Source: Cristatella mucedo (lineage: Eukaryota; Bryozoa; Phylactolaemata; Cristatellidae). Taken from it: a stretch of DNA of 64,000 bases. Under the pieces are notes generated by a model that saw only the letters and a program-made list of their open reading frames with translations, searched no databases and was not told the DNA's origin. Below are positions 112-41,101 of this stretch, one piece after another. The position numbers and the translations under genes are program-made. Every line of letters starts with the position of its first letter. Position 1 is the first letter of the stretch. The stretch is from positions 371,501-435,500 of the forward strand of contig WPIO01000039.1 in assembly GCA_009760855.2 (NCBI GenBank), read 5' to 3'.

Positions 112-625
112 ATGGATGTGGGTCCGCGCATGACTGATCTCAAGCAGGTGATAGAATGTCCCATTTGTATGGATACGTTTACATCGCCAAAAGCTCTGTT
201 CTGTGCGCATAGTTTATGTGGACCTTGCACGATTGATTATGTCAAGTTGCACCGTTTCAAAGACTCAATCGCCTGCCCTGTTTGTCGACAAATCACCCCC
301 TTGCCCTCCCCAGGAGGTGTGGAGGGAGCCGCAAGGTTGCCAGTAAACAGCTTCGTTATCGCAGTAGCTAATATTATCAATCGAACGGAGTGCGAACAGT
401 CACCGTCCATCGGCTCTTCGTCCTTAGCTCGCGCCGCTGGCGTGGCGTCTTGTGCGTGTGGCTCAGCTCTTCCAGTGGAATTCTACTGCGCTACGTGCAC
501 TGGTCTCGTCTGCCAAGAGTGCCAAAAGTCTACTTGCACTCACCATCTATTGGAGCCACTCCAAGATATATCTCGACGTTTGCAAAACAATTTTCCCGAG
601 AGACAACAGAATCAATCCAATGGTG
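112..625 (+). CDS. RING finger/B-box protein, first coding exon (unit 1)
   Basis: The exon encodes 171 residues plus one base. The first ATG is at 112 and a second in-frame ATG at 130. A C3HC4 RING finger is visible with ligands C16, C19, C31, H33, C36, C39, C55 and C58, so E3 ubiquitin ligase activity is the family expectation. It is followed by the motif PSPGG and LPVNSF, also found in the downstream paralogue at 29056. A B-box-like cysteine cluster follows (C114, C116, C126, C129, C134, C137, C142, H144, H145), but the usual C-x2-H pair is not intact. Reading continues past the domain to a strong donor, GTAAGT at 626, which leaves phase 1; without splicing the frame runs to a stop near 678 with unrelated residues. 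The coiled coil usual in TRIM proteins is absent from this exon. The next exon may be 19148-19257, which accepts phase 1. Confidence 0.85.
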
Positions 626-1208
626 GTAAGTCGCTCTGGCTATTCTTGTGGCGGTCATCGTTTTTCATGGGTATGTAGGGCTCACCTGTGTAAAAATGTT
701 GTTTCTCAGTGGAGAGATCAAGACATTTCTGAGAAGTGTCCATTCTTGTAACGCGATAGCGTGTCTTATGGGCTGTGTTTCAAATCCCTAACTGCTTGCA
801 GAGCACCCTCGTTGATAAGAGACCCATAGGTATACGGAGCAATAAGTCTTAAGACGTTAAGTCTTAAGAGGCTAGCTACTTAAATGAAATGTATTTCCTA
901 TCCACGCCCCACGTGAGCTGGTCAGTAATAGTATTTTTTTTAAAGTAGTAAGGCCTAACTCTTCTAGCATATTGTGATCCAGTCATGCCGGTTGCTAAAG
1001 TATTTGCTCTGTCATCCGACTGCAGTTCCTAGTTCCTATGTCATTCCACTACAGTTTGTACTGTCACAGTGAATATTGTGTCTAAATTCTTTATAAAAAC
1101 GACAATGAGCACATGCCATCTTTCGGTAGAAATGTATAGATTGTCGATACTGCATAGCTTGTTGATTTGAGAGGTACGATGCATCAATACAGTGCATGAT
1201 AATCCAGA
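626..1208. other. Intronic sequence without a recognised feature
   Basis: This stretch follows the donor at 626. It is AT-rich and has no convincing coding frame or repeat that I recognise. Confidence 0.4.
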
Positions 1209-1475
1209 CAATTGATAATAATAATAATAATACATTTGATATAGCCCCCTCAGAGAACTCAATCTTTTTCTAGGCACTTTACATTTGCTGCAAAGGAAGC
1301 ACTATCGAATAGTTAGTTAGCGGTAGCATGCTAAATGACAGCGAGCATAACATGGTTAGGGGGTGACATGACGGGGGTCAGCATGCACACATGGTTAGTA
1401 GCAGCATGCACAGTGTCAGCACGCATACATTTCAAGTTGGAATGACCAAAGAGAGCCAGTCATACGTGAGATCCA
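1209..1475 (-). mobile_element. LINE family A, 3' end fragment
   Basis: Read on the minus strand this ends in the family A 3' terminus: the stem-loop region, then a run of TTA repeats (AAT repeats on plus, 1216-1233). Upstream on the minus strand is the family's 3' UTR with the recurring motif gcatgcacagtgtcagcac. No open reading frame remains. Confidence 0.7.
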
Positions 1476-1924
1476 TTCGATGGAGGAAAAACTCACGTGG
1501 TGCCCACGCCAATGTGCACAGCCTATCATTACTGGTAAAAGTAAACGCTACATCCAGATGATACTTACGATGGCCACCACATTAATAAGGTGCACTCAGC
1601 TATACATTTATTATATTGCTCTGTCCAGCGACACGGGGAAGATTGCTCACGTTTTCCACCACCTCAAGTCAGCAAAACAACTTGCTGCCGACGGTGTCAC
1701 ACGGCAGGCACATTTTACATCAACTAGAAAGCCGGTGGTCACGAGCACAAACTAGAAGCAGTCGCAAACTAGAAGCTCACTTTTTTCACTAGGTCAGCTT
1801 GATCCCGTCGAGGAAGCAAGCTGCACACTTGATGGTGAGTGCTTATATTCTCTGTAGAAAATAAAGGTTTGTAATGTGCAGCAGCCGTTAGTGCTAACTA
1901 TCTCGGGGAGAGATTTTCTCTAAA

Positions 1925-4100: not shown

Positions 4101-4189
4101 GGTAAAGCCGATTCCCAAGTTGTCCAGCGACCTTGTTGCAACGGGTGCACTGACAATTTGCACGGCATCTTTCTTCCTTAACTTCCCTT

Positions 4190-6424: not shown

Positions 6425-8640
6425 ATTGAGAGGCACGGTTTCAACATGCTAAACATGGTTAGTGGTAGCACGCAAAGGACAAATCACAAGGACCCACTAA
6501 ATGCTGTGATAAACTGGTGCATTTTAAGCTTTTTTAAATTTTTTCAAGTCAAGGGATGTCATGACGTCTGTTTGGAGTGAGTTCGAGGGTTTGGAAACAT
6601 AGAAACTAAAGGGATGGTCTCCCAAGAATTGATGTTCATACAAGGTATAGCTAAACGATTTCTGTCAAAAAAGCAGGTGGCTCGATGCGTAGCCTGGTGG
6701 GGGGACTACTTCTGATAGGTAGGCTGGAGTCAGAAAATGAAGGGATATAAAAGTGAGTGACAGAACTTTGAAGTCGATGCACTGCTTGATTAGAAGCCCG
6801 TGCAGGTCGGTGAGAAGTGGTGGGACGTGGTAATGTAATGTAATGTAATGTAATGTAATGCAATGTAATGCATCTCCGTCTGTAGCTCCACAAAGTCATA
6901 AAGACCATGTGGGTGTTACGCAGGAGAGTTTTGTATAGTGCACTCACAGCCTAAGCGGCTTTCGGTACGCATTCGGTAGCCAGCAGACTTCGTCTCACGC
7001 AACAAAGAGAAAGTGGGAAGCATAGCAGAGTCAGGAGAGCAGTTGAGGTAGTGAGTAGCATAGAAGTAGCAGCTCAGGACCACTGAAAAGGATGTGCCAT
7101 AATCGGCAGCAGGAGAATAGTTGTTGTTTCGTAAGAATTGTGGAAGCAAGTTCCACAGTCTAGGACCTGCAGAGCTAAAGCTTCTGTCGCCAACTGTCTT
7201 TAAGCGGAGGAATGGGACAGTTGATTTATTGTCCACACAGGACCTGAGGGCACAAACAGGCTGAAACTGATGCAGCAGTTCAGCTAGGTACGAAGGAGCC
7301 AAGCCGTAGTGGGCCTTGTGGGTCAGTGTAAGAACCTTGCTCTGTATCCGTTGGTCAACCGGCATCCATCTTAGCTCTTTAGCAAAGGAGACACGTGCTC
7401 AAACTTCTGGGACTTGAAGACTAGTCTTGCAGCCATATTCATAGTCAGTTGCAGTGGCCTAATCGCTTTTTTGGTACCCCAGCCAATAGGGAATTGCAAT
7501 AATCAAGCCGAGACAGAACTAAGGAGCTAGTTAATTTTTTTTGCAAGCCACTGTGGAAGACAGCTCCTAATCTTGGATAGGGATCGGACGTAATGGCTAG
7601 CTGTAGAGGCAGTCTTCTGAATGAAGCTTTTAAAATTGAGGCAGTTGTTGAAAACGACACCTAAATTTCGAGCACGTGGAACAGCATCACCTATTAAAAG
7701 AGCAAAGCCTTTTAATCCAGCCATATGCTTAGGGTGTCCTATGAGCAGTAGTTCGGTTTTATAGTTTTCGGTTTCGGTCATTTAATTTCAGGAAGCTTAC
7801 TGACATCCAGGATCGAATATCGGCAAGGCAAGGATTCAGTTATCAGTTGCTGCAGCAGATTCCGACGGTTTGAATGACAAACACAACTGAGTATCGTCAG
7901 CATAAAAGTGATATCCTATTCCATGGGCCTTAATCACTTTTCCCAGAGGCTGTGTATAAATGGAGAACAGCAAGGGACCAAGTACAGACCCTTGAGAGAC
8001 TCCACAGGTGACCCTTCTTGTATGTGAGACCTGACCCCCACACGACACGGATTTAACACGACCAGACAAGTACGATTTAAACCACGCCAGTGCTTCGTCT
8101 GCCACACCAATCGTCGTTCTCAGTCGTTCTAGTAGGATATCGTTATCAATGGCATCAAAGAATGTAGGCAGCTGATAGATCTAGCAGGGCTAGGGCAGTG
8201 GCATTCACATCATCGTTGCTCGATATGATGTCATTGCTTACATGGAAGAGAGCAGTTTCTATTGAGTGCTACCGATTGGACCCCGATTTAAATTCTGCCA
8301 GACCGATCGTTGTTCTCAATCGTTCAAGCAGAACATCGTGATCAATGGTGTCGAAGGCAGCAGACAGATCTAGCAGAGCTAGGGCAGTGACATTCCCGTC
8401 GTCATTACCACGTAGACTGTCATTGTTAAAACGGAGGAGAGCAGTTTCAATGGAGTGCTGCCTCTTGAATCCTGATTGAAATGTTTCTGACATTTCATTC
8501 TTTTCAATATGTTCAACCAGCTGCTTAGCAACAATTTTTTCAAGAATCTTTGACAAGAAAGGAAGAAGGGAAACAGGGCTAAATTATGACTCACTTCAAC
8601 TCACAACAGACAAGCCTAGCTGCATAGTTTTGACGTGCTT
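6425..8640 (-). mobile_element. LINE family A copy interrupted by LINE B
   Basis: Minus-strand A sequence (C-terminal region and 3' UTR) occupies 6425-6829 and resumes at about 8594 with the conserved string acagacaagcctagctgca, exactly the sequence expected next in uninterrupted copies such as 13560-13690. The interruption is a B element at 6831-8590. The 6425-6829 part is full of frameshifts, so A is older than B here. Confidence 0.7.
6831..8590 (-). mobile_element. LINE family B copy, 5' truncated, nested in LINE A
   Basis: The minus strand carries B from the reverse transcriptase (fragments with LDLSAAFDTIDHD near 8330-8400 and YADDTQL near 7900) through the C-terminal region to the 3' UTR. 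It ends in a pentanucleotide tail, TAATG repeats on plus at 6831-6860, i.e. CATTA/ATTAC on the element strand. Frames are interrupted several times and the sequence near 8100-8270 partly repeats 8290-8400, so it is a dead, rearranged copy. It supplies the uninterrupted reference for the internal deletion in the 34690 copy. Confidence 0.75.
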
Positions 8641-9257
8641 TTGGGCTTGTGTGTATCAGATGACCTTTTACTGCTGAGCGATGGGGGGCAGTGGTTCAAG
8701 CTGAGTGACACAGAACCGTTGAACTGCCCCGTGCCCCTAGCGATCGGCCTCTTCTTATAGTAGGAGCAGCCGAGCACCGAGAGTTAAGAGCGCTTTACAA
8801 TAGGTTGCCGATACCCTACCGAGCAGTGTCCCTCGTTCGACCAGAGGCCATTTCCATCAGTCGTGGGGATGGAAGGCTACATTTTCGAGATTTGAAGACC
8901 AATCTGTCATCCATGTCGAAGGCAAGTGTGTTCCTACTGAAAACATTGTGAACGATGTAGAATTGCTATTGTTACTGCTGGGAATCTGCTCGTTTACAGA
9001 GCTAACCTGTGCGCCGTGGAGCTCATAATTTAGGAAATCCGAGGGTAAGCGTGTGTGCAAATAGTCTTCTGAATAACTTAAGAAACATTTCGGTGGTTTT
9101 CACACCAAGGTTTGAACATGTGGTGGCCTCACTATTGCATAATCAGTTGCCAACTAAAACCACGGATCTCCACCGAAGCATCTGCAACGAAAATTTGTTT
9201 TAAAAATCCTAGCTTAGTTGTGGAATGGCCTCTGACCCATGCTCGTCAAGTCGAGCA
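8641..9257. other. Intronic sequence, nothing recognised
   Basis: I see no domain, repeat family or splice-supported exon here. Confidence 0.3.
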
Positions 9258-9510
9258 GTGCTGTGAGTAATAATAATAATAATAATACATTCCTCAGATA
9301 AATTATAAATAGATAAATCTCTTTCTATGCACTTTATATATGCTGCAAAGGCAGCATGATCAAATGGTTAGTGGTAGCATGCTCAATGACAGCAAGCATA
9401 ACAAGGTTAGAGGGTGACATGCACGGGGTAGGGGGGGGTCAGCATGCAAATATGGTTAGTGGCAGCATGCGCAGTGTCAGCACACAGGTGTGGGGGGTGG
9501 TGGTGGTGGT
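9258..9510 (-). mobile_element. LINE family A, diverged 3' end
   Basis: AAT repeats at 9270-9289 are followed by a decayed stem-loop (only tttctatgcacttta retained) and the recurring gcatgcgcagtgtcagcac of the A 3' UTR. Confidence 0.6.
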
Positions 9511-13062: not shown

Positions 13063-13067
13063 TATGT

Positions 13068-19147: not shown

Positions 19148-19257
19148 ATGAAGGCAGCAAGCTTCTACAAACCGCCGGTGTTTCGGGTACTGATCTGCAG
19201 TCTACAGTGGGTGCAGTGGTTTCGTCGCTACTCTCCTACATCGCTCCACCACCACAG
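19148..19257 (+). CDS. Possible linker exon of unit 1
   Basis: A consensus donor (CAG followed by GTAAGC at 19258) closes a frame that is open upstream and ends with the residues IAPPPQ. An acceptor-like tttggctacag ends at 19147. With that acceptor the exon begins with two bases and ends in phase 0, so it accepts the phase 1 end of the RING exon (112-625) and delivers phase 0 to the MIF4G exon at 21043. It encodes about 36 residues, starting EGSKLLQTAG and ending in a short proline run, with no recognised domain. The donor is convincing, the acceptor less so. A SINE starts about 30 bp downstream. Confidence 0.4.
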
Positions 19258-21042: not shown

Positions 21043-24000
21043 CGTGTGTCCATGCACGACTTCCGCTGCTGCCTGTCTGTGCTGGGTTCGCACTGCAATC
21101 AGGCTGCCGTGCAGAAGCGAGCGCTGGCGGCACTGCGAGGCGCCAGCGCTCCCGAGCTGGGTGCGGCCGCCGAGCATCTCGTGGACGAGGCGCTTCGGAG
21201 GCCGAACGTCACTCACCCAATCGTTCAGCTCTGCCGCGCCGTGCTGGAGGTGAGAGCACGGTGGTAAGCTCTGGCCGCCGCTCCTATCGGCTCGGCTCAC
21301 GTGGACTAATCGACTTAGCTTGCTCGTCGTCGTCGTCGTCGTTCTCCTTCTTTGCAGCTCGTGCGCAACGTGGCCGGCCGAGGTCAGCGGGCGGCTGCTG
21401 CTGCCGGAAGCTTCAAGGCCGAGCTCACTTCCGCCTGCTACCATGCGCTCACCTGGCCGCGTGTTGGCTCTGCCGCCGACTGCGCGGCAGGCGATGCCGG
21501 CGCCTCGGGCTGCTGTGGCCACGACGACCGAGGAGGCGTCGAGCGGCAGGGATACGAGCCGCAGCGCCGTCGGCTGTGCTTCGTCGCTCGCCTCGTCGTG
21601 CAGCTGCACGTGGCCGACCTGCTGGTCGCCGGCGACTCGCTGCTGCACGACTGCTTGGCCAGCCTGCTCACTTCGCCGGCCGCGCTCGACTACTCAGCCG
21701 ACGGCAGCGTCGGCAGCGACGACGACCTTGACTGCGCGGCCAGCATCCTGGCCATGCACGGCCGACGGCTCGACCTGCCTCACACGAAGGTGAGGCACAG
21801 CGTGGGCCTGAGCTCTCTGCAGGCGAGCCGTTGCTGCCGTGATGAAGCCGCCTACATCGTGCCTCTTCCCTTATGCTGCTCGGCCAGCTCGCTCAGGGTA
21901 CTTGCTCGGTGTGTCCTTACTTTCTTGGCGTGCTTGCACCTTCTTGGCATGTTTGCACCTTCTTGGCGTGCTTCCAGCACTCGTAGGCAGCACGCGCAGC
22001 CCCCCTGCGACGTACCGGCGCAGGCACGCTGTTCAGGCTGTTCGGCAGGTTTAGACACTGGTGCATGACGTTTGGCTTGGCTAGACTCGCCGGAATTTTG
22101 GCTGAGCATGTCACCTGTCCCATCCAGTACCGACGGGCGATTGGGCAATCACACGCACTCGGCTGTCGCTTGAGATGCCCACTCGGCCATTAAAGTCTGG
22201 TTTAGACCGGTGAGTCTTGCTTCCTACCCGTTTCATACCTACTCGAGCCTTCGGTCTAAACGTCACAAATATGGTGGGGGCAGTCCGAGACTTAGGAAAG
22301 GCTGGACTCACCAGCTACTAACCCGGTTCTTTTCCCTGGCCACTTCTCAGGCAAGACTTTGCAAGTGACCTATTATATAGGCACTGTTTAGGCCATGCCT
22401 ACTGCACTGCTTTGAAAGGAGTAGCAGACGAATTGACCAGCAAACTCATCGATGCATTCCAAGCAAGTCCCTGTTTATGGGACACCCTGAGCTCGGAGTT
22501 CAAAAATCAGATTTTGAGGTGGCTTCTTTTGTGCTGGTTGAGGCAAAGCATAAACAGCAGCAGCCAACTCCAATTTACTGGGACGTGCATCATGGATGGC
22601 CATTTCATATGTCCCTAATGCTCAGTGGGAGGAGTGAGTAGGAAGCAAGACTTGGGGTAAGACTGCCGTCTAAACCTCCTACAAGAAGACCGAAGTAAGA
22701 ATCGATTTGGTTGGAAGCAAAACTCAGTCTATACGAGGCTTTAGTCGCTACCGCCTCGTTGCTGTTTTTTATTTTCTGCCGGCGAACTGACGAACTATTT
22801 CGCGATTGCTCTTGCATCTCAGTTTAGCATCCGACATGGCACTTTATCGTTTGTCTGCGACTGCAAGATCTTACATGGTGGTTCTAAAGTACTGTACATA
22901 ATCTGCCCTCCGTGCGATCGTTTGTCTGCGACTGCAAGATCTTACATGGCGGTTCTAAAGTACTGTACATAATCTGCCCTCCGTGCGACATAATAATAAT
23001 AATAATGTACTTGATAAAGCGCCCTCGGAGAACTTAATCTCTTTCTAGGCGCTTTACATTTGCTGCAAAGGGAAATGCAATTAAATGGTAAGGAAAATCA
23101 TGCTTGAAAAACAAACAAAATGAATAACATGGTTAGGGGTGACATGCACAGGGTCAGCATGCAAATGTGGTTAGTGGCAGCATGCACAGTGTCAGCACGC
23201 ATAAGCACATCAAGGACGAATCACAGGGACCCGCTAAATGCTGTCCTAAATAGGTGTGTTTTTAGATTCCTTTTAAATGTGGTCAGGTCAGGGGATGTTC
23301 TGACGCTGGTCGGGAGGGAGTTCCAGGCTTTGGGAGCATACGAACTAAATGCACGGTCTCCAAAGGATTTGAGGTTTGTACGAGGTATTTCTAGACTGTT
23401 GGATTCCGAAAAGCGGGTGGTACGATGCTTGGCCTGATGGGAGAGTATGTTGGAGAGATAGGCTAGAGCCATAGAATGAAGGGACCTAAAAGTGAGCGAC
23501 AAAACCTTGAAGTCAATCCGTTGCTTGACTGGTAGCCAGTGCAGGTCGGCAAGAAGTGGAGTAATGTGGCAACTGTGACGCTCACGACAGACAAGCCTAG
23601 CTGCTGAGTTTTGCACCAGCTGCAATCGCCTGATCACAAATGCTGGTAGGCCAGTAAGCAGTGAGTTGCAGAAGTCTAGACGAGATGTCACGAATGCATG
23701 GACCAACTTAGACGTGGTATCCTTATCTAAACAAGCCCGAATTTTAGCAATGTTATGAAGCTGAAAATAGGAAGATTTGACCGTGGAGCTAATATGGTCG
23801 TCTAACGAGAGGTCGCTTTGACACCTAGATTTCGAGCTGATTCGACAGAGGATATGCTGGCAGAGCCAATTTTGAGTGTCAGCCTTTCCAATCTCTGAAT
23901 CACACTGGGTTTGCCCATAACTAGTAAGTTAGTTTTGTCATCGTGCAATCTGCAATGTAACTTCGTCCTTGGAGGAGCAGGCAATGTCGATGTAATTGAA

Positions 24001-25738
24001 CGAAGAAGAAAACCATGCATCGCATGTTTTGGTGTGCCGTCGGCATACTTTACTTCCCCAAGCCAGGGCTAAATCAGCTCGATTACAGAAGCTCATCGCT
24101 CTTTCTATAGAATCGTGTTGCACTTTTTATGATCACATGGTTTGGTGGCTCCGTTTGGTTTGGCTGGGTTGATGCTTCATAGTGTCGACTTTTGTAAGCC
24201 GAAGTGGAATAGTACATTTCGACTAATTCTGTATCACGTTTTCTAAGCTGGCTTCAGTTCTGTGGATTGGCTGCATCTAGTGTCTGGCTTAAGCTATTTT
24301 CTAGCTAATCGAGACCAATCGTGGCCTTAATATACTGCATATTGTATATATCTCAAGTTTATTATTCTGTAGCCACTAATGGATGAGCACTTCAAACATA
24401 TCGACCTCGTCAGATGCAATTACTTGACGCCAATAAGAATGCGCCTTCTGCTGGAAGGCCTCGTAGACCTTCGGAATGTAAGTGGTCACGTGGTCTAACA
24501 TTACATCCAGGTTGTTTCCTGGTATGCCAATGATCTATGGCAGTAGTGGTCTCCAATGTCTTTCAGTTTTAAACTGTCTTCATAACAACCGAGAACTGGC
24601 CATGCTGAGGGACATAGAGACGAATCCCAACCTCTGCCTAAATTAGTTGGAACCTTAGTAATATCGGAACGCCGCAGAAGATGTCTGCCTGATACGAGTT
24701 GCTACATGTCACAGCCTGAGATATTTGCTGGATGCGTGCCCTACTAGCTGATTTACGAGCCTCATTTGTATAGTGGCAGAAGAGCCTTAACGGCTATCAC
24801 CATCGCTTGCAGTTGGCAATAAAGGATCGCCCACTGCAGGATTTGTGAACCGACGACCTCAGTCAGTCGTGAAGAGCAAGCACCTTACCTTCTGAGCTAT
24901 CATGGCCCTCACAGCTCACGAGGGGCTTCAATTCACATGAGGTGTTGAGTCTCGGTTAAAATTATATACCTTGAAATGCCCTGCAACTGTATAGAACTTT
25001 TTAAGATGGTTGCATTATTTTTAGGTATACTTGGGATATTAAAATTAAAATTTCAAGGGTCGACAGATTCAACAGCCTCATTTACATAGCAGCAAAAGAG
25101 ACATGGTGGCTGCCATGCTACTAGGAGCTGGCAAAACAGATTGCCTGCTGAATAACTCGAACCTGCCCTGTAGAAGGCTAAGGTGGGAGCGGTGATACAG
25201 GCATTAGGGCATTTAGGAGCTGTATCCAAATCCATAACATGTGATGGTCAAGTTGTGGCAGCAAGCTGAGTACCCAATGTCATCAATTTAAAGCAACTGA
25301 GGCCTTTATGTTACCTGTGTTCAGAGCTCTCTGATGATAATAAATCCAGCTACCTTTCTCTATTATGGCTCCTCATTTGCAAAACAACGTGTGTGGGGGC
25401 AATTTTAGGTCCAGTGGTACTGTCTGCCCACTTGTATTCCTTCATTTGTTAAGGCAAATACATATTCCACGGTGGATAGTGTAGTTTTGGTTGCCTTCTT
25501 GTGACCAACCATTGCTGTGAGCCGAAGTTACTCAACAAGCACTGCGTTGATATGAAAAACATTGGATGCAATTGTGGTATTGGTGCTTTTTTCTATGCAA
25601 TTGCATGTAAGTAAGCGCTGTATGTACAAATGGTCAGTTCGGTGCCTTTGTTTCCATGTTGTGCAATTCGGTTTTCCCGTTCATGTCAAATTTGATTTTG
25701 TTTTACATTTTCAGCGTGCTTGGTATGCCAGAGTATGA
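21043..25738 (+). CDS. MIF4G domain protein, MIF4GD/eIF4G-like (unit 1)
   Basis: Four exons fit: 21043-21249, 21358-21789, 24373-24477 and 25715-25738, all joined in phase 0 by good GT-AG sites. They encode a single MIF4G domain, the helical-repeat fold of eIF4G and MIF4GD that binds translation and histone-mRNA factors. Exon 1 carries EHLVDEALRRP and LCRAVLE; exon 2 has the FKAELTSACYHAL helix, then FVARLVVQLHVADLL, LLHDCLASLL and HGRRLD; exon 3 gives PLMDEHFKHIDLV and ends in LVDLRN; the last exon adds RAWYARV and stop, matching the family's terminal LR-x3-W-x2-R motif. Exon 2 contains a glycine/alanine-rich insertion not usual for the family. If translation starts at the ATG at 21052 the protein has 252 residues, near the MIF4GD length. 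An acceptor at 21042 allows upstream exons. A polyadenylation signal AATAAA lies at 25923-25928. Confidence 0.8.
22846..22987. repeat. 71-bp tandem duplication
   Basis: Two copies of a 71-bp unit starting atcgtttgtctgcgactgca, differing at about one base (catggtgg versus catggcgg). They end where the tail of a LINE A copy starts. Confidence 0.9.
22988..23945 (-). mobile_element. LINE family A copy, C-terminal region and 3' end
   Basis: AAT tail at 22990-23004, a canonical stem-loop (aaagcgccctc ... aggcgcttt, 23016-23055), the 3' UTR, and an open minus-strand frame 23706-23221 ending in AWNSLPTSVRTSPDLTTFKR. A 10-bp-scale deletion near 23820 and the truncation near 23940 show it is dead. It lies in the intron of the MIF4G gene of unit 1. 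Confidence 0.8.
23946..24372. other. Intron, nothing recognised
   Basis: Unique sequence between the LINE and the exon at 24373. Confidence 0.3.
24745..24915 (-). mobile_element. tRNA-derived SINE
   Basis: On the minus strand an A-box-like gatagctcagaaggtaaggt and the GGTT...C B-box region (inserted by two bases here) precede the SINE body and the 3' segment ctatacaaatgaggc. It lies in the last intron of unit 1. Confidence 0.7.
25060..25215 (-). mobile_element. tRNA-derived SINE, diverged
   Basis: The 3' segment (complement of cagattcaacagcctcattt) and a decayed B-box region (ataactcgaacctgccctg) are in the expected order and spacing; the A box is unclear. Confidence 0.45.
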
Positions 25739-29055: not shown

Positions 29056-30071
29056 ATGGAGGTCTTGCAGCCAATTTTCGAATGTCCCATTTGCCTCGAG
29101 AGACTGAAAGACCCGAAGGTCCTGAGCTGTTTCCACAGCCTGTGCAGTCTGTGCGTACAAAAGTACGCAGCCTCCAACGCCTTCGAGAGCCGAATGCTGT
29201 GCCCGACGTGCAGACAAGTGACGACCATCCCAGAGCCGGGCGGAGCGGCCGGCGTTGCAAACCTGCCTGTCAACAGCTACCTGGTCGCTTTGATGGACGC
29301 GGCGGCGAAGGTGCTCGAGCCAGCTAATAGAGCAACGTCTTCGCCGTCCCGGACGTCGTCGGACGCTGCCCAGCGCGGCGGCGACAGCAGCAGCAGCTTT
29401 GCGGGAAACGAAGTGGGCAAATGTTGCGGCCGCCACTCGTCCGAGGCCGTGCAGCTGTACTGCGCGTCGTGCGCGTGTCTGATATGCGTCCAGTGCGTGC
29501 TGACCACCTGCAAGCAGCACGACCACAAGTCGATCGCGAGCGCAGCCGGCGGTGCTCGCAGCTCGCTCACGCAGCTGGCGTCGCGGGCCGGCACGTACGT
29601 GGGCCGCGCCGCCAGAGCTGGCAGCGACGCCGAGACGTACCGCGCCGACATGCGAGAGCATACGGCGGCCTGCCTGCGCTCGCTCGAACAGCGCAGGGCC
29701 GGCGCACACGCCGCCCTGCAGTCGGCCTACGACGGCGCCGTGCGTAACGTACAGAGACGCGCGGTCGCCTGGGAAGCGAAGGCCGACGAGTTCGCGGAGA
29801 GCGTCGACCGGTCGCAGAGCGAATGCCAGAGGCAGCTCATCGAGGTCGGCGAGCTGATCTCGCACCGGTCCGACATCGCCGTCGTCGCCAGCTTTGCAGC
29901 AGCAGAGAGGCGGCTGGGCGACCTGCTGGCGTCGCCGTGGCTTCGCAAGGCCGCTCTCGCGAAAGAGAAGTTTGTGTTCAGCAGCGGCAGCGACTTTTTA
30001 GCGCAGCTAAAGAAGTATTTCTACGTGAGCTCCGCAGAAGAGCTGGGCACCGAGCTCAAGCTGCTGCCAAG
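29056..30071 (+). CDS. RING finger/B-box/helical protein, first exon (unit 2)
   Basis: The start has a strong Kozak context (gccgccATGG). It encodes a C3HC4 RING (C10, C13, C25, H27, C30, C33, C49, C52), the shared linker PEPGG and LPVNSY, a serine-rich spacer (94-115) and a B-box type 2 (about 123-157; C124, H127, C136, C139, C144, C147, H155, H157). A long alanine/glutamate/arginine-rich helical stretch follows (about 170-330), probably a coiled coil. This is a TRIM-like layout; a ubiquitin E3 role is a family inference. The frame reaches a TAA at 30073-30075, giving 339 residues, but that TAA lies inside a consensus splice donor (AAG then GTAAGC at 30072). If spliced, the exon ends in phase 2, which matches the exon at 34127. 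High GC contrasts with the flanks. Confidence 0.88.
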
Positions 30072-31020
30072 GTAAGCGACGACGTCAATGGGCCGCCGCA
30101 ATATCGGGGGGGGGGCGTGCCCTGGGAGCAGCCGCGAAGAGCTAGCTATCGATACTGCTCGCGTCGGCGTGCCACGGCAGCTCGGCTCGCTGTGGCAGCC
30201 ACAATGTTTGGTGGGCTGCCGCTCCCCGTGAGCAGCACCGAAGAGCTAGCCACACGACGAGCGGTCGACCAGGCGAACGTGGGACACGTGACTCGAGTTG
30301 GCCTGATTGTGATTGTTCCCCATGCCGCAGAACAGAACAGAACAGAACAGAAGTGCTGGGAAACGATTTCCATTTAGTCGACGATGCTTGTATTCTCGTT
30401 AGTAAGTCCCGCGTGCCAACTTCGGTGTTGCATTGCCGAGTTTATCTTAGATTACCAACAGCTTAAGTGCTAGCAACCTGTGTGCAACGAAGCGAATGCA
30501 TGTATTTTAGCTTGGAGACTAGTTAAAGACTAAAAGTTAGCGTCTAAGATGTGAGAGAAAGCTGAAGATGATAATGATCAACGTAATCTGGGGTGCACAT
30601 ACGTGAGTCCTATTATGCTGTATAGTAAGTTTTGCAGGGACCCTCCATGTGGACATCTGCCTATACCAGTGTCCAAGTATATGCTTTGACGATTCCTGAC
30701 TTAAAATCAATATTAACCAGGAGAGCTTCAAAGGACTGTTAACTTCAATGTGTCTGAATAGCATAACTGACTGCAGTTTTCATAGAAAAACTATGGTTTC
30801 CTGCTGCCATTGTGGATGGACAAGTCTATCAGAGCGATTGATCCAAAATAAAAGAAGGCCGAGGGAGAGAATATGCGAGTAACTATCTCAGATGAGAGCT
30901 AAAAAAGCAAACAATAGAGGAAGCCACTCATCGGTGCTCTTCCAAAGCTCAACAGAATAGTTGCATGCAACAAAACTCGAAAATATGAATAGACCAAGAA
31001 GAAGCCTACGAGCATCATAG
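30072..31020. other. Intron or 3' flank of the RING exon
   Basis: GC-rich to about 30350, then AT-rich. Includes a G8 run at about 30106 and four to five AACAG repeats at 30331-30352. No exon recognised. Confidence 0.35.
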
Positions 31021-31024
31021 GCTC

Positions 31025-31465
31025 AAGCTGGTTTGATCCAGTGGTTAAGGTGCTCGCCCGACCAAGGTCTGGCAGAATAAATCAAATAAAATAAATCCTA
31101 GCTGACTAAACAGCTTTTTTGTATAGTGACAGAAGAGCCTTTACGGCTATCACCACCGCTTGCAGTGGCGATAAGGGATCGCCCACCGCAGGAATCGAAC
31201 CCACAACCTCGGGACTGTGGTCGTGAAAGCAACCACATTACCTAGTGTGCCATCACGGCTCACCAGGCAGAGGTCGTGGGCTCGAGCTCCGAGGCACATG
31301 TGAAGCACCTTAATAAAGATTAAGTTCTCTTGGGGCGCTATACAAATAAATATATATATAAAACTTAATAAGCATCTCACTGATTACAAAGCTAACTACA
31401 GAAATAAACTGATGTTAAGGTGTGAGCTCTTCACGACCCAAGTCGTGGGTTTGAGTACTTGACTG
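31025..31465. mobile_element. Cluster of tRNA-derived SINE sequences
   Basis: A complete minus-strand SINE lies at 31090-31265: A box TGGCACACTAGG, B box GGTTCGATTCC on the element strand, and 3' segment ctatacaaaaaagctg. It is flanked by plus-strand 5' pieces at 31025-31078 (ccagtggttaaggtgctcgcc) and 31405-31460 (ttaaggtgtgagctcttcacgac ... gtgggtttgagt). Between them, 31265-31345 joins a B-box-like gtgggctcgagctcc to gattaagttctcttggggcgc, the A-type LINE 3' end. Confidence 0.65.
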
Positions 31466-31549
31466 ACACTAGGTAATGCTAGACTAGCTGAAATTCAGCG
31501 TTGCTTTCAATATGCACCATAAGTTCCCCCTTGATGTTCACCGGCGTAA

Positions 31550-31650
31550 GATAGTAGTAATATAGTAATAATGACAATATAGCACCCAAGGAGAAAAAAA
31601 TCTCTAGGCACTTCACATGGGTTGGTTAGAAAGCATATCAAGTGACAAAT
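31550..31650 (-). mobile_element. LINE A/C-type 3' end
   Basis: A degenerate AATAAT tail, then tagcacccaaggagaa ... tctctaggcacttcacatg; strongly truncated. Confidence 0.45.
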
Positions 31651-31694
31651 GGTAGTAAAAGGCAATTTTCAGTATTCCCAAGTGCATAAAGTCT

Positions 31695-32990
31695 TGTCTG
31701 GGCAGCACTGGCACTGCTCTGCAATAGTTCAGGTCCTATCTCAGTGGAAGACTCCAGAGTATTGACTTGAGTGGACAAAGGTCATCCGAGGCATCTCTGA
31801 AATGTGGGGCACCTTAAGGTACCATGCCTGGCCCGGTTTATTTCATGGTTTATACCCTCCCTCTTGCCGATGCGATTGCCAAGCACAATCTAGGCTTTTA
31901 CTACTTCTATGTGGATGACACTCAGCTTTACCTTTGCTTTGAACCCTCCCAGCCCCCAGCACATCAAATTATCTCAACTCTCTTGCTGCATACATTGATG
32001 GCATCCGCACATGGATGGCAGCAAACTTTCCTAAATTAAATGATAAAAACTAGCTTACTAGTTATGGGCAAACCAAGTGTATTTCAGAAATTGGAAAGGC
32101 TAATGCTCAAAATTGGCTCTGCCAGCATATCTCCTGCTGAATCTGCTCGAAATCTAGGTGTCATGTTCCAAAGTGACCTTTCGTTAGACGACCACATCAG
32201 CTCCACGATCAAGTCTGCCTACATTCAGCTACATAACGTTGCTAAAACTTGGGCTTGTTTAGATAGAGACACCGAATCCAAGTAGGTCCATGCATTTGTG
32301 ACATCCCGTCTTGACTTCTGTAACTCACTGCTTGCTGGCCTACCGGCATGTGTAATCAGGCACTTACAGCTGTTGCAAAACTGCAGCTAGGCTTGTCTGT
32401 CGTGAACGGTGCAGTTGCCACATCACACAACTTCTTGCCGACCTGCACTGCCTACCAGTCAAGCAAGAGATCCACTTCAAGGTTTTGTCGCTCACTTGTA
32501 GGTCCCTTCATCCTTTGGCTCCAGCCTTCCTATCAGATCTACTCCCCCATTAGGCCAAGCATCGTACCACCCGCTTTTCAGAATCTAACTGTTTACCTAT
32601 ACCTTGTACAAACCTCAAACCCTTTGGAGACTGTGCCTTTAGTTCGTATGCTCCCAAAGTCTGGAACTAACTGCCGACTTGCATCACGACATCCCCTGAC
32701 TTGACCACATTTAAAAAGAAATCAAAGCCCACCTATTTATGAGAGCATTTAGTGGGTCCCTGTGATTCGTCATGTATGTTCTTATGCGTGCTGACACTAT
32801 TATATGCTTCCACTAACCACACTTGCATGCTGACCCTGTGCATGTAACCCATAACCGTGTTATTCTTTTTGTTTATCTAGCATATCACTCACCTGTCGAT
32901 CGTGTTTTCTATGCAGCAAATGTAAAGCCCCTAGAAAGGAGATTGAGTTCACTGAGGGCGCTTTATCAAATATTGTTATTGTTATTAGAA
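31695..32990 (+). mobile_element. LINE family A copy, plus strand
   Basis: Starts within the reverse transcriptase (gcactggcactgctctgcaat) and runs through VDDTQLYL at about 31912-31940 (the catalytic YADD is VDD here), the C-terminal region and 3' UTR. The stem-loop follows at 32928-32970 and a TTATTG tail to 32990. Frameshifts at about 32040 and 32285. Lies between the RING exon and the MIF4G exons of unit 2. Confidence 0.75.
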
Positions 32991-33296
32991 AGGACAATTC
33001 AAACGGATGCAGCAAAGGCTGTGGGGAGAAGCTGGGTTTTAGCTTTCTTTAGAATGTCAACACGTGAGGGGATGTCGAAGTTCCAGTCGGCAGTGAGCAT
33101 CTGGCATTGCAAGCATGGGAACTAAGCAATGTTAATGCTGAGGCTAAAAGTAGCCGCTCGTTGAAGCCGATGGACGGCCTGCACTCCAGAGTGTGCCGAT
33201 GCCGAATGTGCATGCATTCGTGGATCGGCGTGGGCGCAAGCAAGCATGCACGCTCGTACATGTGCTCGTGTATTGGATGGTGGAGCGGTGGTATTC

Positions 33297-34025
33297 GTTT
33301 GCTTAGACAGAGATACTACATAGAAATTGGTCCGTTCATTTGTGACATCCTGTCTTGTCTTCTGTAGCTCGCTGCTTGCTGGTCTACCGGCTTGTTCAAT
33401 CAGTCGCTTACAGTTGGTGCAAAACTCTGCAGCTAGGCTTATCTGTCGTGAGCTTCGCAGTTGCCACATCGCAACACTTCTCGCCGACCTGCACTGGCTC
33501 CCAGTCAAGCAGCGCATCGGCTTCAATGTTCTGTCACTCACTTTTAGGTCCCTTCATTCTTTAGCCTCAGCCTACCTATCAGACCTGCTCCCCAACAAGG
33601 CTAAATGTCGTACCACCTGCTTTTTATAATCTAATCGTTTAGCTACACCTCGCACGATCTTCAAATCCTTTGGAGACCGTGCCTTTAGTTCCTATGCTCC
33701 TGAAGTCTGGGCCTCACTTCTGACTGGCATTACGACATCCTCTTGATTTGATTACATTTAAAAAGAAGCTAAAAACATCTATTTATCTCAGCGTTTAGTG
33801 GGTCCATATGATTCATCCTTTGTGTGCTTATGGGTGCTGACACTGCATGCTGCCATTAACCATATTTGCATGCTGACCTTGTGAATGTCACCTCTAACCA
33901 TGTTCTGTTTTTTGTCATTGCACATGCTGTCACTAACCATTCGACCAGGCTTCCTTTGCAGTAAATGTAAAATGCCTAGAAAGAGATTAGGTTCTTTTAG
34001 GGTGCAATGCAACTGTATTATAACT
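33297..34025 (+). mobile_element. LINE family A copy, plus strand
   Basis: Begins with cttagacagagatactacat, encodes the C-terminal region (LPVKQRIGFNVLSLTFRSLHS) and ends with an eroded stem-loop (aaaatgcctag ... agggtgcaat) near 33970-34012. The 5' end is truncated. The stretch 32991-33296 between this and the previous copy is of mixed, unclear origin. Confidence 0.7.
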
Positions 34026-34126
34026 ACTAATATTTAAAAATGTGCAGTTTAGGGATGTTTCTGTCGGGTATTTGTTGCCTTGTCCTGCACAAGGGGCTTA
34101 GCCATCACTGGTCTCGATTGTTTTAG

Positions 34127-37100
34127 TGCTGAAGGTGCTGCAGAGCCAGCCGATTTGTCGAGAGCTTCGATTGCACCTGTTGAGGTCGGCAAGATTCAGA
34201 ATCAAAAGCAAGCCGAATCTTTGGCTAGCTCTAATGTAAGCGGTCTTACCCGAGCTGCTACTTCTCCGGCCACTTATGCGTCATGCCTCGGTCCACGCAC
34301 CGTTGCACGAGGTGTTTGTTGCATGTGTCATGCGATCCTTCTGCGGCTGCATCGAGTTGTATTCCTCACCACTTGTCCACAAGCCTACTTTAAACGACCG
34401 CAAAGCCCAGGCAGCCCCCTTTGCAGCCAGCGCTTTGTTTCCAGTGTTTGATCAGTGGTGACTTGCAGCTGCTGCCATTTGGGATGGGGTAGAGTATCTA
34501 CGGCCTGTCGTGTGCCGTCCTGTTCTGAGTTTTTTAACCTGTTTGGCCATGCCGATGACTGACAAAAAGGTAAAAAGAAAAAACAAGGAAAGATTAAAAG
34601 ATAGGCTGATTCGGCGGTCTCATTTATGTAGCAGCAGCAGAGCCTTCTGCAGGCCACCATTGCTGCAGGCTCATTTCTTGAATGTCTGGAGACTTTTGGT
34701 TTGGCCCAACACGTTAATCATAGCACCCACGTCGGTGGCCACATTCTAGATCTCGTGATCACTAAGGATGTCCTCCCCACTGACATTGTGGTGTGCCCAC
34801 TGACACTCTCTGATCATTGTTCGGTCTCGTTTACTGTTCCTGCTACCTCGTACGTACAGGGCAATGTCGAATTTGCCAAACGACGTAACTTACAAAGCAT
34901 TGACATGGACAAGTTTTTGAAATCCGTTTGTGATGCAGGCCTTCTTGATCTGCATTCAGACTCGACCGGCAGCCTCGATACCCTCACTGATGCGATGAAC
35001 ATGACACTCAGGAGTGCTCTTGACAAGCATGCTCCCGTTCGCTCTATCCGTGTTCAAATTCGTCGAGATTCCTTTCAATTTACAAAAAAACTCCTTAAGA
35101 TGTGCCGTGTTAAGCGCAGGCTGGAACGTCGTTTCAAGAAATCGGGGTCTGAGGCAGACCTAGTCAATTTTAAAGTCTTCCTTCGAGTTTACACCCGAAA
35201 GCTTAAAAAAGCCAGGGCTTCTTTTTTCATTAGAAAACTGAATTCCTGCCAGTCGGACACTAAACAGATTTATAAGACAGTAAACCATTTACTGGCCAAT
35301 GCTGTGAGGTCTGACTCCCCAGATATTAAGGGCTTAGCCGAAAAGTTTGTAGCCTTTACTGAAAAAATTGTGCACATTCGTGCCTCCATTAAGCCCCCTC
35401 CGACCAAAGCAATCGCCGTTCCTCAACCTGTGACCTTTCTTAAAAGGTTCTCCGATGTTTCTGCCTGTGATGTCGCTGCCTTAATAAGGTCTAGCAAAAA
35501 GAGCTCGTCTCCTGAAGACCCTATACCTTCATCTCTGTGGTCTTCACTTGCAGACCAACTTAGCCCTGCCATAACCAAGATTTTTAATGCTTCTTTGGGA
35601 AAAGGGGTCGTCCCCAAGTCCTTCAAATCGGCAATCGTTAGACCCATTCTTAAAAAGCCTGGATTGGACACAGAGGTCCTAGCAAACTATCGTCCAGTTT
35701 CCCTTCTTCCGTTCTTATCAAAGATTCTTGAAAAAAATGTTGCTAAGCAGCTAGTTGAACATATTGAAAATAATGGAATGTCAGAAACATTTCAATCAGG
35801 GTTCAAGAGGCAGCACTCTACTGAAACTGCTCTCCTCCGTGTTAACAATGACATTCTACGTGGCAACGACGACGGGAATGCCACTGCCCTAGCTCTGCTA
35901 GATCTGTCTGCTGCCTTCGACACCATTGATCACGAAGTTCTGCTTGAACGACTGAGAACAACGATCGGTCTGGCAGACGAAGCACTGGCGTGGTTTAAAT
36001 CATACTTGTCTGATCGTGTTCAATCCGTGTCGTGTGGGGGTCAGGTCTCAGACATGAGAAGGGTCACCTGTGGAGTCCCTCAAGGGTCTGTGCTCGGTCC
36101 CTTGCTGTTCTCCATTTATACACAATCTCTGGGAAAAGTGATTAAGGCCCATGGAATAGGATATCACTTCTATGCTGACGATACTCAGTTGTATTTGTCA
36201 TTTAAACCGTCGGAATTAGCTGCAGCAACTGAGAAACTGAATGCTTGCCTTGCGATATTCGATCCTGGATGTCGGAAAACTTCCTGAAATTAAATGACGA
36301 TAAAACCGAACTGCTGCTCATAGGACACCCTAAGCGTGTGGCTGGATTAAAAGGCTTTGCTGTTCTAATAGGTGATGCTATTGTGCGACCTTCAACACGT
36401 GCTCGCAATCTAGGTGTCGTGTTCGACAGCTGCCTCAATTTCAAAAGCTTCATTCAGAAGACTGCCTCTACAGCTAGTCATCACAGCCGACTATGGCAAA
36501 TCTTTTTCAGCTGTCCTGAACTGCTACTTCTATGCTACTCACTACCTCAACTGCTCTCCTGACTCTGCTATGCTTCCCACTTTCTCTTTGTTGCGTGAGA
36601 CGAAGTCTGTTGGCTACCGAATGCGTACCGAAAGCCGCTTAGGCTGTGAGTGCGCTATACAAAACTCTCCTGCGTAACACGCACATGGTATTTATGACTT
36701 TGTGGAGTTACTGACGGAGATACATAACAGCCTATCACCATGTTTGTAGGTTTATAGTCCTGCCAGCTGTAGGATCGCCTACCGCAGGACTCGAACTCTC
36801 GATCGTGATCGTGAGTTTCGATTTCCTGGGCTGAGACCCGTAGCAGTGCTGCTGTGCGTTTTAGATTTCGACATACCCGGAAGCGAGGCAGTCACTCTCG
36901 TACCAGTCTACGGTGCCGAAAGCGCCATTTCAGTCTTTCTCTTATCCGGGCATGCCGGCACCGACGACGGTTGTCAACCCCTATACAGCACTGAATCTGC
37001 CTCAGCCAGCCATGCTGTCCTATCCGGGTCCGTTTGTCTATCCCGTGCCGACACCTCGAATGCCGCAGCCGCCGGTACCGGGCACGATGGCCGTGGGCAC

Positions 37101-38830
37101 AACGAAGCATTCACCATCGCCTGCCGCAGCCGTCCCCGGTGGCCCTCAAGCTTCCGGCTCCGGAAATACGAGAAGTGCTGCAGCCAGCGGAGGCACAGCA
37201 GCCCACCTCAGCCCAGGTGAGCCCAGCAGCGAGCAAGCAGGCACACACGTGCGCTGTCAGCTGTCGTACTGCTGCAGCTTGCCGCTAGGGCCGACCGCTA
37301 AGCTGCCACACTAGACAGCTCTTCGGAAGCAGACTTTCTGCCGAAGCCGCCGCCCCATGTCTGGCACGTGACTTTGGGCTCATGCCGGCCAGCGTTTGGC
37401 TGTCGAACCTGTAGGCTTTATGTTTGCTCGGCATGAATCCCGTTTTTGCTGCTCTCATTTTCGGCAAACAGCTTTGCTCGTGTGGCTCTGTCGTTTGGCG
37501 ACCGATGTCGACTGCTAGCATTAGCAGCTTTCCTGCATTGACTTGCATTGTGTTTGTGGCGTGATCTCAACGCGAATGGGCCGTGATAGAGCTAAGGTGC
37601 TTGCTCTTCATGAGCGAGGTCGTTGGTTGGAATCATGCAGTGTGGGCGATCCTTTATTGGCAACTGCAAGCGGTGGCAATAACTGTTAAGGCGCCTCCTC
37701 CGCTATACAAATGAGGCTGTTAAATCAGCCAATATTTATTTATTTAACGATGTCTGTACGTGAGCTGTCACTGCTAGGAGCAGCACGAGGCTTTACTTGT
37801 CTCCGAGCAGAGCCGCACGAGCTGCTGTCGAGCAGTAGTGCTGTGATGAAGCAGGGCGCACCAGCTTTGCTGCATCGCTGTGCCTGCAGGCGGGTTGCTC
37901 GGCTCTTGGCGACCAGTTGGCCAGCTCGCTCGCCCAAGTTGCCGCAAAGGAAGGCGCGTGGATGTGGCTGCAGATTTTATGGGATCGGGTATCTTGTCTC
38001 AGCTGGGCTTTTGGTTGTCACACTGTTGCTGAAGGACTTTCGTAGGGTTACTCACCTCGAGGGCATGTTGACCTTTCCTTGAGTATCGCCGATTGTCAGG
38101 TGGAGGAGGAGGAGGACCTCATCACTTCTCTGCGACTGCCTCGTGCAACAGGGTGGCCCTACAGGCCGCCTGTCCTGTGTGATTTAGTGCCAAAAGGGTG
38201 CATGCCCCTGATCACCAGGATCGGCCTTCCGGATGGGACACTTGATTTGACCCCTCTTGTGCCACTGTCTCGTGCAGACACTGCACCACTCCACCCTTGA
38301 TCCATCGAATTTCGCTGAGCGATTTTCTTTAATTGGTGAAAATCGAGAGACACACACACCACGTCCTCCTACTTCTCCTCTTCCTCCTGCTCCTTCTCCG
38401 AATTCTCCTTCTCTTCCGAATCCTCTTTTTCCTCCACATCCTCTGCCTCCACATCCTATCTTGGTTGTCCAACCCCCCACCATCCCCTCTGCCAGAGTGC
38501 GTGCCCACTCTAAGAGAGCAATTACGATCGAATGGCTGCACACCTTTCTAGCATCTCCCTGTTTTCCGATGCCAAGTGGATGCTTCGTACTGTTAATTGG
38601 TTGTTTCGGCTCGCATAGCACGTCAGCGACTCCAGTGATACCTAGGCTGTATTCTCATCTCCTTTCATTCTCTCTCAGGCACGCCATCCGTTCGGAGTTC
38701 AGGATCTCCTTCGCCATCTGCCAGTTCTGTTGTGCAAGTCACGCAGAAGCTCAGCAAGGTCGGCTGTGTGCGGCCCCAAGTGCGGCCCAAGCTGTTCGGC
38801 GGTCTTTGAGCAAGGCTCGTTTGCAACACT

Positions 38831-38865
<35 letters not shown>

Positions 38866-40242
38866 ATGCTTTTGCGACTCCCTCATTTAATTCGGCCACT
38901 CCTTGGTCGTCGGTGCTGCCAGTCGGCCACGCTCAGCGGCAGGCTCGTATTTTTCAGAAAGCCGCGAAGAAGGCCGTCAAAGGCCACCTCGCGGGACTGA
39001 CCGAAGATGGCAACGTCACTGCAGCTGCTGACGTCGCCGGTTCCGCCATCCTGACGTACCTGGGCGATGCCCAGTACGATAGCAAAGCACTAGAGGCCGT
39101 GGTCGGACTGTTGTTCGACGAGGCTTGCGCTCGGCCAGAGGTTTCTCGAAGTCTTGCTCGCGTCAGCTTGATCCTGAACAAGGTGCTCGCCCGCTTGCGG
39201 CAGCCCAGCCGCTGTCTGCGCTGTCGCTGGACGCGCTGCTAATGCCATCACCACTGGTGCTAGAGGGCTGAGTTGCCTGTTAGATAATGCTCAGCGTTCT
39301 GACAACCAAGATAAGCTACCTCCAGAGGCACCCGACCGACAGCAGCGCTGCAAGAAGTCCTGTCGGAGGCCACAGGATCGCGGCCTCTTGCCGCCTTCGC
39401 ATCTAGTGATAACCGATCTCACTCCGATTTCAGCTTCCTGCTGCTGCCAATTGCAAGCTGCCAGGCAAGACGATTACATACAAAAGGATTCTCCAGGATC
39501 GAATCAAGCTCGAGCTCGATCTGAAGGCTGCCGGCACCGCCTCCAGTGCCAGCGTCGCTGCGCACAAGATCCTGATTCACAAGGTGCAGTTCGTCGTCCA
39601 CCTGTTCGATGTGGGCGAGGTCAATGAGTGGGTGCTGCACGACTGCATCATCCGCTGTCTGAAGGAGGAGAGCGTCGACGAGTGTCTAGAGTACGGCTGC
39701 GGGCTTCTCGCTCACTATGGCCGCCGGCTGGACACCCAAAGCGGCCTGGTGTGTGAGGCGTGCGCCCCCTTGCCTCGGCCGCCAGCCTGCAATTGCGCCC
39801 GGGCTCGCCTGCACTCGTGCCTCGATGCCAATGGAGTCGCTCTGCTGTTTGCGAAAGCCTTTCACTTGCTGTGTGAGGACCTCGTGCTCGAATGGAAGAC
39901 GAGCTGCCGTTTTCCATTCCAGCCTCGTATGAACCAACATTTTAACCAGATCAACCGAATTATTGCGCTGCCGAATATGTCGCCAGGCCTGGTGACGATG
40001 TTTCAGGATATACTGAAGTCTGTAAGTGCCGAGCAACCCAGCGTGCTGCTTTGGTGGTATTAGAGCTGACGGGTCAGCCTGCAAATTGTTTCTAAGAACT
40101 CCTTACACCGGGCCACGAAAAGTAGCCGGCAGTCTTTCCTGTGAAAGTTGATTGTGTCGTCTTCCCCCACCGACCAATGTGAAATATACACTGTTGTTTA
40201 ATTCTTGTACGACTGTTGTGTTGTGTGCGTGCATGTGAGGAC

Positions 40243-40333
<91 letters not shown>

Positions 40334-41101
40334 GAGGAACACACATTGCAACCGTAGATAATGGGATCGGAGCACGGTAGGACGGTCACCTTAAACTGAT
40401 TTGGCAGCATGCTTGTATACGGTATCAGCTCGTCTACGGGTTGCTTCGAGGCTTACCAGAGTGAAAACAAACGTTGCAAAGCAGAGCTCTCGGGTTTGCC
40501 TTAGCATTTAGTGCAAAAGCCTCCGAGCCTGAGACTCCTGCTATCGCATGCGTGCTGGGGTGGTATAGAGACAATGGCGCTCTCCTCTAGTGGGGAAGAC
40601 GTGTAGAACTTTGCTAGAGACCATCTGAGTGTGCATCTCGGTTACAGAGCCGTGCATGTTACCTGCTTGCCAGTCCAGCTCGGCTCGCTTTCATCACTGA
40701 CTTATCGACGTGAGTGTTTCAGTCACTCCGGCTAGGTAGCCGATGGCGCAAGCCGACGGTTGCTTTTGCTAGTTGCTAGCCTAGCAGCCCCAGTTGGAAA
40801 CCAGTCGGCAGCAGCTGAGAGTCTTGCCTAGTGGAATGACCCTAAGCAGCCATGCCATGCTTCAAGAGTGGGACTGCTGGCATAAGCTGTATGCAGCCAA
40901 ATTTTGACCCTGATCTTAACGTTGCAGTAGCTTTAGCAGTTGGTCCGTTCACCGTTTATTTAATCTCTTTGTTCACTGCATGCCCTGTGTCTTGAATTTG
41001 AAAGAGAAAAACGTTCAACCACTATAACGCTGCTTATTTCGTTGTTGTAGAGGAAACCTGCCAAGAAGGCACCAAGTGGAGACGATCAGTGCGTCATCTA
41101 G
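34127..41101 (+). CDS. eIF4G-like MIF4G protein with proline-rich linker (unit 2)
   Basis: Seven exons fit: 34127-34235, 36865-37216, 38679-38758, 38958-39182, 39434-39748, 39923-40021 and 41051-41101, with compatible phases throughout. The first exon starts inside a codon and has no in-frame ATG, so coding sequence must lie upstream; the donor at 30072 has the right phase. The second is proline/serine-rich (MPAPTTVVNPYTALNLPQPA). The MIF4G domain spans the last four: KAAKKAVKGHLAGLTEDG, a middle helix TYKRILQDRIKLEL, then FVVHLFDVGEVNEWVLHDC and HYGRRLD, then PRMNQHFNQINRII and MFQDILKS, then RKPAKKAPSGDDQCVI and stop. HDC, GRRLD and RM-x2-HFNQ match eIF4G, pointing to a role in translation or mRNA handling. 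The donors at 38759 (GTCGGC) and 39183 (GTGCTC) are weak. The eIF4G C-terminal domains are absent. Confidence 0.75.
34600..34685 (-). mobile_element. tRNA-derived SINE, 3' fragment
   Basis: Complement of ctgattcggcggtctcattt ... agcagcagcagagccttctgc matches the SINE 3' segment. Truncated where LINE B begins. Confidence 0.4.
34690..36718 (+). mobile_element. LINE family B copy with long open RT frame
   Basis: A 528-residue frame (34701-36287) starts in the last part of the endonuclease domain (SDH at residues 37-39). It contains the linker and the reverse transcriptase: IVRPILKKPG, then LLDLSAAFDTIDHE (residues 400-412), GVPQGSVLGPLLF and the catalytic YADD (491-494). It breaks at about 36257, where the copy at 6831-8590 has one more C, and the C-terminal region continues in another frame from 36245. 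Compared with that copy, about 480 bp are missing at 36481. The 3' UTR ends in gagatacata at 36718. Group: L2/CR1-like non-LTR element. It is intronic to unit 2. Confidence 0.85.
36722..36840 (-). mobile_element. tRNA-derived SINE, diverged
   Basis: Complement contains the B-box-type GAGTTCGAGTCC and the gcggtaggcgatcc body. The 3' end merges with the end of LINE B. It ends 24 bp before the exon at 36865. Confidence 0.55.
37575..37740 (+). mobile_element. tRNA-derived SINE
   Basis: GTGATAGAGCTAAGG (A box), gttggttggaatcatgc (B-box region), the body gtgggcgatcctttattggcaactgcaagcggtggcaat, and a 3' segment ctatacaaatgaggctgttaaatcagc, followed by an ATTT repeat tail at 37726-37745. It lies in an intron of unit 2. 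Confidence 0.8.
38365..38470. repeat. Polypyrimidine CTC/CTT-rich tract
   Basis: Plus strand is nearly all C and T with scattered A. One frame reads as proline-serine repeats, but no splice sites define an exon, and the phases of 37216 and 38679 fit each other directly. Confidence 0.7.
38836..38865. repeat. CT dinucleotide tract
   Basis: About 15 CT repeats in the intron between 38758 and 38958. Confidence 0.9.
40243..40330. repeat. GA dinucleotide tract
   Basis: About 44 GA repeats with one AAA interruption, a pure purine-pyrimidine mirror repeat able to form triplex DNA. It lies in the last intron of unit 2. Confidence 0.95.

Follow-up and report, generated by a model that had tools for sequence, protein, structure and literature searches.

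Do the two RING-bearing exons in this stretch of the bryozoan Cristatella mucedo genome belong to the same genes as the MIF4G exons that follow them, such that each product would be an E3 ubiquitin ligase built onto a translation-initiation scaffold? The window, by which we mean the whole 64,000-nt stretch analysed (bases 371501–435500 of contig C331, from a 572-Mb, 688-contig eukaryotic assembly), holds two consecutive units on the plus strand, each with a RING/B-box exon (R1 in unit 1, R2 in unit 2) upstream of exons for a single MIF4G domain (MIF4G-1 and MIF4G-2). The arrangement is real and unusual. We read it as two TRIM-type RING/B-box exons, each lying upstream of a truncated eIF4G paralogue, with the two parts spliced together in unit 2, a reading to which we give a probability of roughly 0.48. 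Unit 1 may be a gene of the same kind as unit 2, or it may be two genes.

Reconstruction of the exon chains reproduced the ends, phases, and lengths (463 residues for unit 1, 748 residues for unit 2) given in an initial annotation of the window; in both chains, all exons are open, join in phase, and lead to a stop. (The inner exon edges of both chains are choices of this analysis, which yield those same lengths.) Unit 2 consists of the following exons:

29056..30071, plus strand: R2, the RING, B-box, and following region of unit 2; PF00097 at 31.7 bits; ends in phase 2
34127..34235, plus strand: proposed linker exon of unit 2; phase 2 to phase 0; without an in-frame ATG, as initially annotated
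36865..37216, plus strand: Pro/Ser/Tyr-rich exon of unit 2; its frame is already open at the first base
38679..38758, plus strand: Ser-rich exon of unit 2 (exon 4), followed by a weak donor, GTCGGC
38958..39182, plus strand: MIF4G exon a of unit 2; 5′ boundary in phase 0, at most one residue from the intron position of C6 and C663 (two putative eIF4G-type genes of the same genome, described below)
39434..39748, plus strand: MIF4G exon b of unit 2; the joined MIF4G chain matches eIF4GII (1hu3) at E 2.2e-17
39923..40021, plus strand: MIF4G exon c of unit 2, from chain reconstruction; part of the joined-chain 1hu3 match
41051..41101, plus strand: terminal exon of unit 2 with stop, from chain reconstruction

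R2 opens in the start context GCCGCCATGG and ends at a donor (AAG/GTAAGC) that ranks in the top 0.15% of GTs in the window, with an in-frame TAA overlapping this donor. Besides the donor after exon 4, that after exon 5 (38958–39182) is weak (GTGCTC), and the exon at 36865–37216 has a composition that we take to resemble the N-terminal region of eIF4G. Unit 1 is made up as follows:

112..625, plus strand: R1, the RING and degenerate B-box exon of unit 1; PF00097 at 27.8 bits; ends in phase 1
19148..19257, plus strand: proposed linker exon of unit 1, or the 3′ portion of a separate first exon; phase 1 to phase 0
21043..21249, plus strand: MIF4G exon a of unit 1; 5′ boundary in phase 0, at most one residue from the C6/C663 intron position
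21358..21789, plus strand: MIF4G exon b of unit 1; MIF4G at 32.6 bits on the joined chain
24373..24477, plus strand: MIF4G exon c of unit 1; within the alignment to eIF4G2 (4iul)
25715..25738, plus strand: terminal exon of unit 1 with stop, from chain reconstruction

The donor ending R1 (GTG/GTAAGT) is strong, in the top 0.41% of the 3950 GTs of the window, and the linker exon of unit 1 has a donor in the top 0.05% and an acceptor only in the top 13.9%.

The domain content initially assigned to these units holds for the RING in both, for the MIF4G in unit 1 and nearly so in unit 2, and only in part for the B-box. Both PF00097 scores exceed the Pfam cut-off (21), and all eight RING zinc-ligand positions are preserved in R1 and R2. 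The B-box (PF00643) reaches 20.6 bits in unit 2, below its cut-off of 24.1, and has no entry for R1 at an E value of 1 or better in the Pfam profile scan; R1 carries a Cys-rich stretch, with Gly where the unit 2 B-box has His. For both exons, hmmscan listed RING families and no plain U-box family. Both RING exons are predicted to be TRIM-type. With R2 as query, 11 matches were found in the genome (R2 itself, R1, and nine others), and 10 kb was fetched around eight of those nine. The top two RING paralogues fetched, C111 and C222, each consist of one long open frame with a TRIM-NHL-like organization: C222 has an NHL repeat by Pfam, and C111 aligns with C222 in the NHL region. Their RING and last B-box align with R1 and R2, in which, by contrast, neither the first B-box nor the NHL-like C-terminal part is present; R1 additionally lacks the region after the B-box, whereas R2 retains this region, which aligns weakly to the paralogues there (a candidate coiled coil). 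R2 ends at about the point where a further paralogue, L032, continues into its NHL-like C-terminal part.

Against a Pfam cut-off of 30.8, the MIF4G domain scores 32.6 bits in unit 1 and 29.1 bits, slightly below, in unit 2; the best matches among eIF4G structures are eIF4G2 (4iul, E 3.5e-9) for unit 1 and eIF4GII (1hu3, E 2.2e-17) for unit 2. The domain matches lie well beyond chance, and the MIF4G parts are predicted to be truncated eIF4G paralogues that have kept only the MIF4G (first HEAT) domain. A genome search for the MIF4G family gave eight matches on five contigs; because the exons of the window are themselves absent from these matches, the search misses divergent copies. From their motifs, we read the five as eIF4G (C6), eIF4G2 (C409), an eIF4G-like gene (C663), UPF2 (C550), and CWC22 (C665). 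The C663 locus (L026, ~6760–9485) holds a divergent eIF4G-like gene besides the eIF4G and eIF4G2 genes, and its MIF4G match is near full length (84 bits on joined pieces).

The affinity to eIF4G claimed for these exons at the outset is borne out by their introns. Two phase-0 introns, one following helix 2 and one following DKAK, occupy identical places in units 1 and 2, C6, and C663; the phase-0 intron preceding helix 1 is displaced outward by one residue in the two units relative to C6 and C663; and that after DLR coincides in unit 1 and C663 and lies two residues earlier in unit 2 (it is unreadable in C6, and C409 is without an intron there). These residue offsets were read by eye, some of them from one side of the intron only. 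Because the positions match those of eIF4G-type genes, the exon that opens the MIF4G part is probably an internal one in each unit, requiring a further exon upstream. A first exon of MIF4G-1 beginning at ATG 21052 was rejected as unlikely, as the exon starts at most one residue from an eIF4G intron position. Of ten open frames examined in unit 1, nine lie between R1 and the linker and the tenth within a later intron; their Pfam matches all fall below cut-off.

Several observations point to the RING exons as the source of that upstream sequence, above all in unit 2. Scored with generic splice matrices, the donors ending R1 and R2 reach 9.6 and 10.9; donors as strong as these lie near 47 and 12, respectively, of 1384 open-frame ends (frames of at least 60 codons in 20 fetched loci, most of them surely not genes), and the six long single-frame RING paralogues reach 7.7 at most (the shorter L035 and L038 being left out). 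Three queries for an NHL or coiled-coil piece found none in 626–21042 or 30072–36864. At a donor score of at least 7, no candidate first exon fits the linker of unit 2; exon 3 is fitted by two candidates, whose start context is imperfect. Between R1 and its linker, 35% of the sequence is repeat, and between R2 and its linker the share is at least 61%, with repeats counted solely by comparison with the window and 22 fetched loci; in the R2-to-linker interval, at most ~1.6 kb would therefore be left for both a gene end and a new promoter. The proposal of a single E3-MIF4G protein is plausible, at about even chances, for unit 2, where almost no other start was found at this donor threshold, and doubtful for unit 1, where the sequence makes fusion the less probable outcome, given an 18.5-kb intron and an upstream ATG.

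The competing explanation that survives best, and that we regard as a serious possibility with odds somewhat short of even, is that the four parts are separate genes. Two of them would be TRIM-like RING/B-box genes, ending alone or via short terminal exons, and the other two short eIF4G-like genes with their own promoters; duplication as a two-gene block would account equally well for the alternating order. The points gathered in this and the next paragraph speak for it or against a RING-to-MIF4G splice. The unit 1 linker can be read without a stop in the upstream direction as far as an ATG in good context at 19033 (A at −3, G at +4), so MIF4G-1 could be its own gene; the protein starting there would have 330 residues, with MIF4G at 33.9 bits. 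Thirty candidate first exons fit MIF4G-1, five of them with full start context, and it is the joining of R1 that demands the 18.5-kb intron. Independent MIF4G starts, which the initial annotation had named as evidence against joined genes, may therefore exist in unit 1 (ATG 19033), with almost none found in unit 2 at the donor threshold of 7. This threshold is higher than three of the six internal donors in the MIF4G-side chain of unit 2 itself, so a true alternative start could be missed there, and a Met within exon 3 could also serve as start codon. On the RING side, the R2 frame can terminate alone at TAA 30073–30075, and 10 terminal-exon options for R2 and 47 for R1 would end the RING genes.

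The phase fits, which the initial annotation had itself considered merely suggestive, carry little weight because other linker exons fit as well: the needed phases occur in 12 of 107 linker candidates for unit 2 and 43 of 328 for unit 1, among which the proposed linkers rank second and sixth, respectively (the top-ranked unit 2 candidate sits in a LINE-like open frame), and candidates with the scores of the proposed exons occur for seven of nine phase combinations in unit 2 and eight of nine in unit 1. By eye, the two linker exons show no likeness to each other. Neither was scored as coding by a codon model for which GC-rich RING genes had served as training set; the model was dropped, as it was negative even for the R1 exon. 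No RING was found in ~20 kb each at C409, C550, C663, and C665, a scan that extends only ~7–14 kb upstream of these MIF4G loci and has C6 outside it. At E 0.001, protein searches gave no match, and hence no fused homologue, among the best 7991 candidates scored for the 748-residue chain and the best 7996 for the 463-residue chain; since ordinary TRIM proteins did not surface either, we suspect that few animal proteins were reachable in this search.

Four separate genes fit less well with the strong donors at which both RING exons end and with the failure to find, at the donor threshold of 7, a good start from which MIF4G-2 could be read. A weak sign in the same direction is that the upstream extension of the unit 1 linker, 19033–19147, is less coding-like in codon-position GC (0.44, 0.53, 0.55; 38 codons) than 19148–19257 (0.67, 0.53, 0.47; 36 codons). 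CpG content as a sign of a promoter was set aside: the 500 bases before MIF4G-1 have a seemingly raised value of 1.05, but the 500-base background is too variable (75th percentile of 1.18 over 152 stretches).

That the units are decaying fragments, i.e., fast-evolving or dying TRIM and eIF4G copies with no functional product, is improbable: the low identity of the MIF4G domains (22.4% between units 1 and 2 and 18.9–26.3% to the three eIF4G-type genes of the same genome that were compared), the two weak donors of unit 2, the sub-cut-off MIF4G-2, and the degenerate B-box of R1 would suit decay, but 14 of the 14 exons in both chains are open and the zinc-ligand positions of both RINGs are intact.

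The pair most likely arose through tandem duplication of one block, as proposed from the start, and the two halves of the units differ in how far they bear this out. A five-sequence MIF4G tree groups units 1 and 2 at a support of 96, on long branches, whereas a small RING tree leaves R1 and R2 unpaired (supports of 37 and 30). In pairwise MIF4G scores, unit 1 is closest to C409 and unit 2 to C6. In tblastn against the window and 20 fetched loci, R1 and R2 find each other as best match, with 37% identity across 155 residues; when the comparison is confined to the RING, however, R2 shares 51% of its residues with C222.

Returning to the spliced gene, we consider it possible, at slightly less than even odds, that unit 2 (and perhaps unit 1) is an animal RING/B-box E3 ligase in which an eIF4G-type MIF4G domain, acquired from a truncated eIF4G paralogue, replaced the TRIM C-terminal domain as the targeting part before tandem duplication. 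The unit 2 product would begin with a RING and a B-box, continue with a probable coiled coil and a Pro/Ser-rich linker, and end with MIF4G. Along with the RING-to-MIF4G splice and expression, we infer its ligase activity and all of its binding partners: the RING would bring in a charged E2, the coiled coil would dimerise the protein, and MIF4G would provide the target by docking on eIF4A or other eIF4F partners, or compete with eIF4G for them, so that the ligase would act where translation initiation complexes assemble. If true, this would be an animal E3 ligase targeted by a translation-initiation scaffold domain, and the connection it implies between ubiquitination and eIF4F would be testable; if the parts are not fused, the locus is an ordinary case of two neighbors, one TRIM-like gene and one short eIF4G paralogue, that were duplicated jointly.

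Elsewhere in the window, reverse-transcriptase pieces of LINE type are frequent, as judged by eye, and include fragments at 12729–14506, 6916–8583, and 34632–36562, the last with a 551-codon open frame. A 349-base unit forms a tandem array at 57592–59559 (5.7 copies, 96% matches), within which lie five near-identical minus-strand open frames of 93–101 codons. At 56784–57146, the minus strand carries a portion of a homocysteine S-methyltransferase gene (match to PF02574 at E 8e-21), and further exon-like frames at ~51.2 and ~48.6 kb seemingly (by eye) belong to the same gene.

Among known systems, eIF4G1/3 and eIF4G2 (DAP5) share with both units the MIF4G homology and the phase-0 intron positions; unlike them, both chains stop directly after MIF4G, and no MA3 or W2 match was found in the seven plus-strand frames scanned downstream of unit 2. 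The eIF4E-binding motif follows the pattern YxxxxL-hydrophobic; it has no match in the unit 2 chain, the only one scanned, which is thus probably without eIF4G-like eIF4E binding. In the literature sampled on MIF4G with RING, B-box, tripartite motif, or U-box, no animal RING/B-box-MIF4G protein was evident from titles and the openings of abstracts. The initial annotation knew of no described family joining an E3 domain to MIF4G, and this calls for correction: PUB57 and PUB58 of Arabidopsis, which belong to class IX of the U-box proteins, a class described as Arabidopsis-specific, combine a U-box and MIF4G in one protein (PMC6489225). With this precedent, an E3-type domain together with a MIF4G domain is not new in principle. 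A fused unit 2 would parallel these plant proteins with another E3 fold and a reversed domain order: they have a U-box where the units here have a zinc RING/B-box, and they carry MIF4G in the N-terminal region, whereas here it is C-terminal (PMC6489225).

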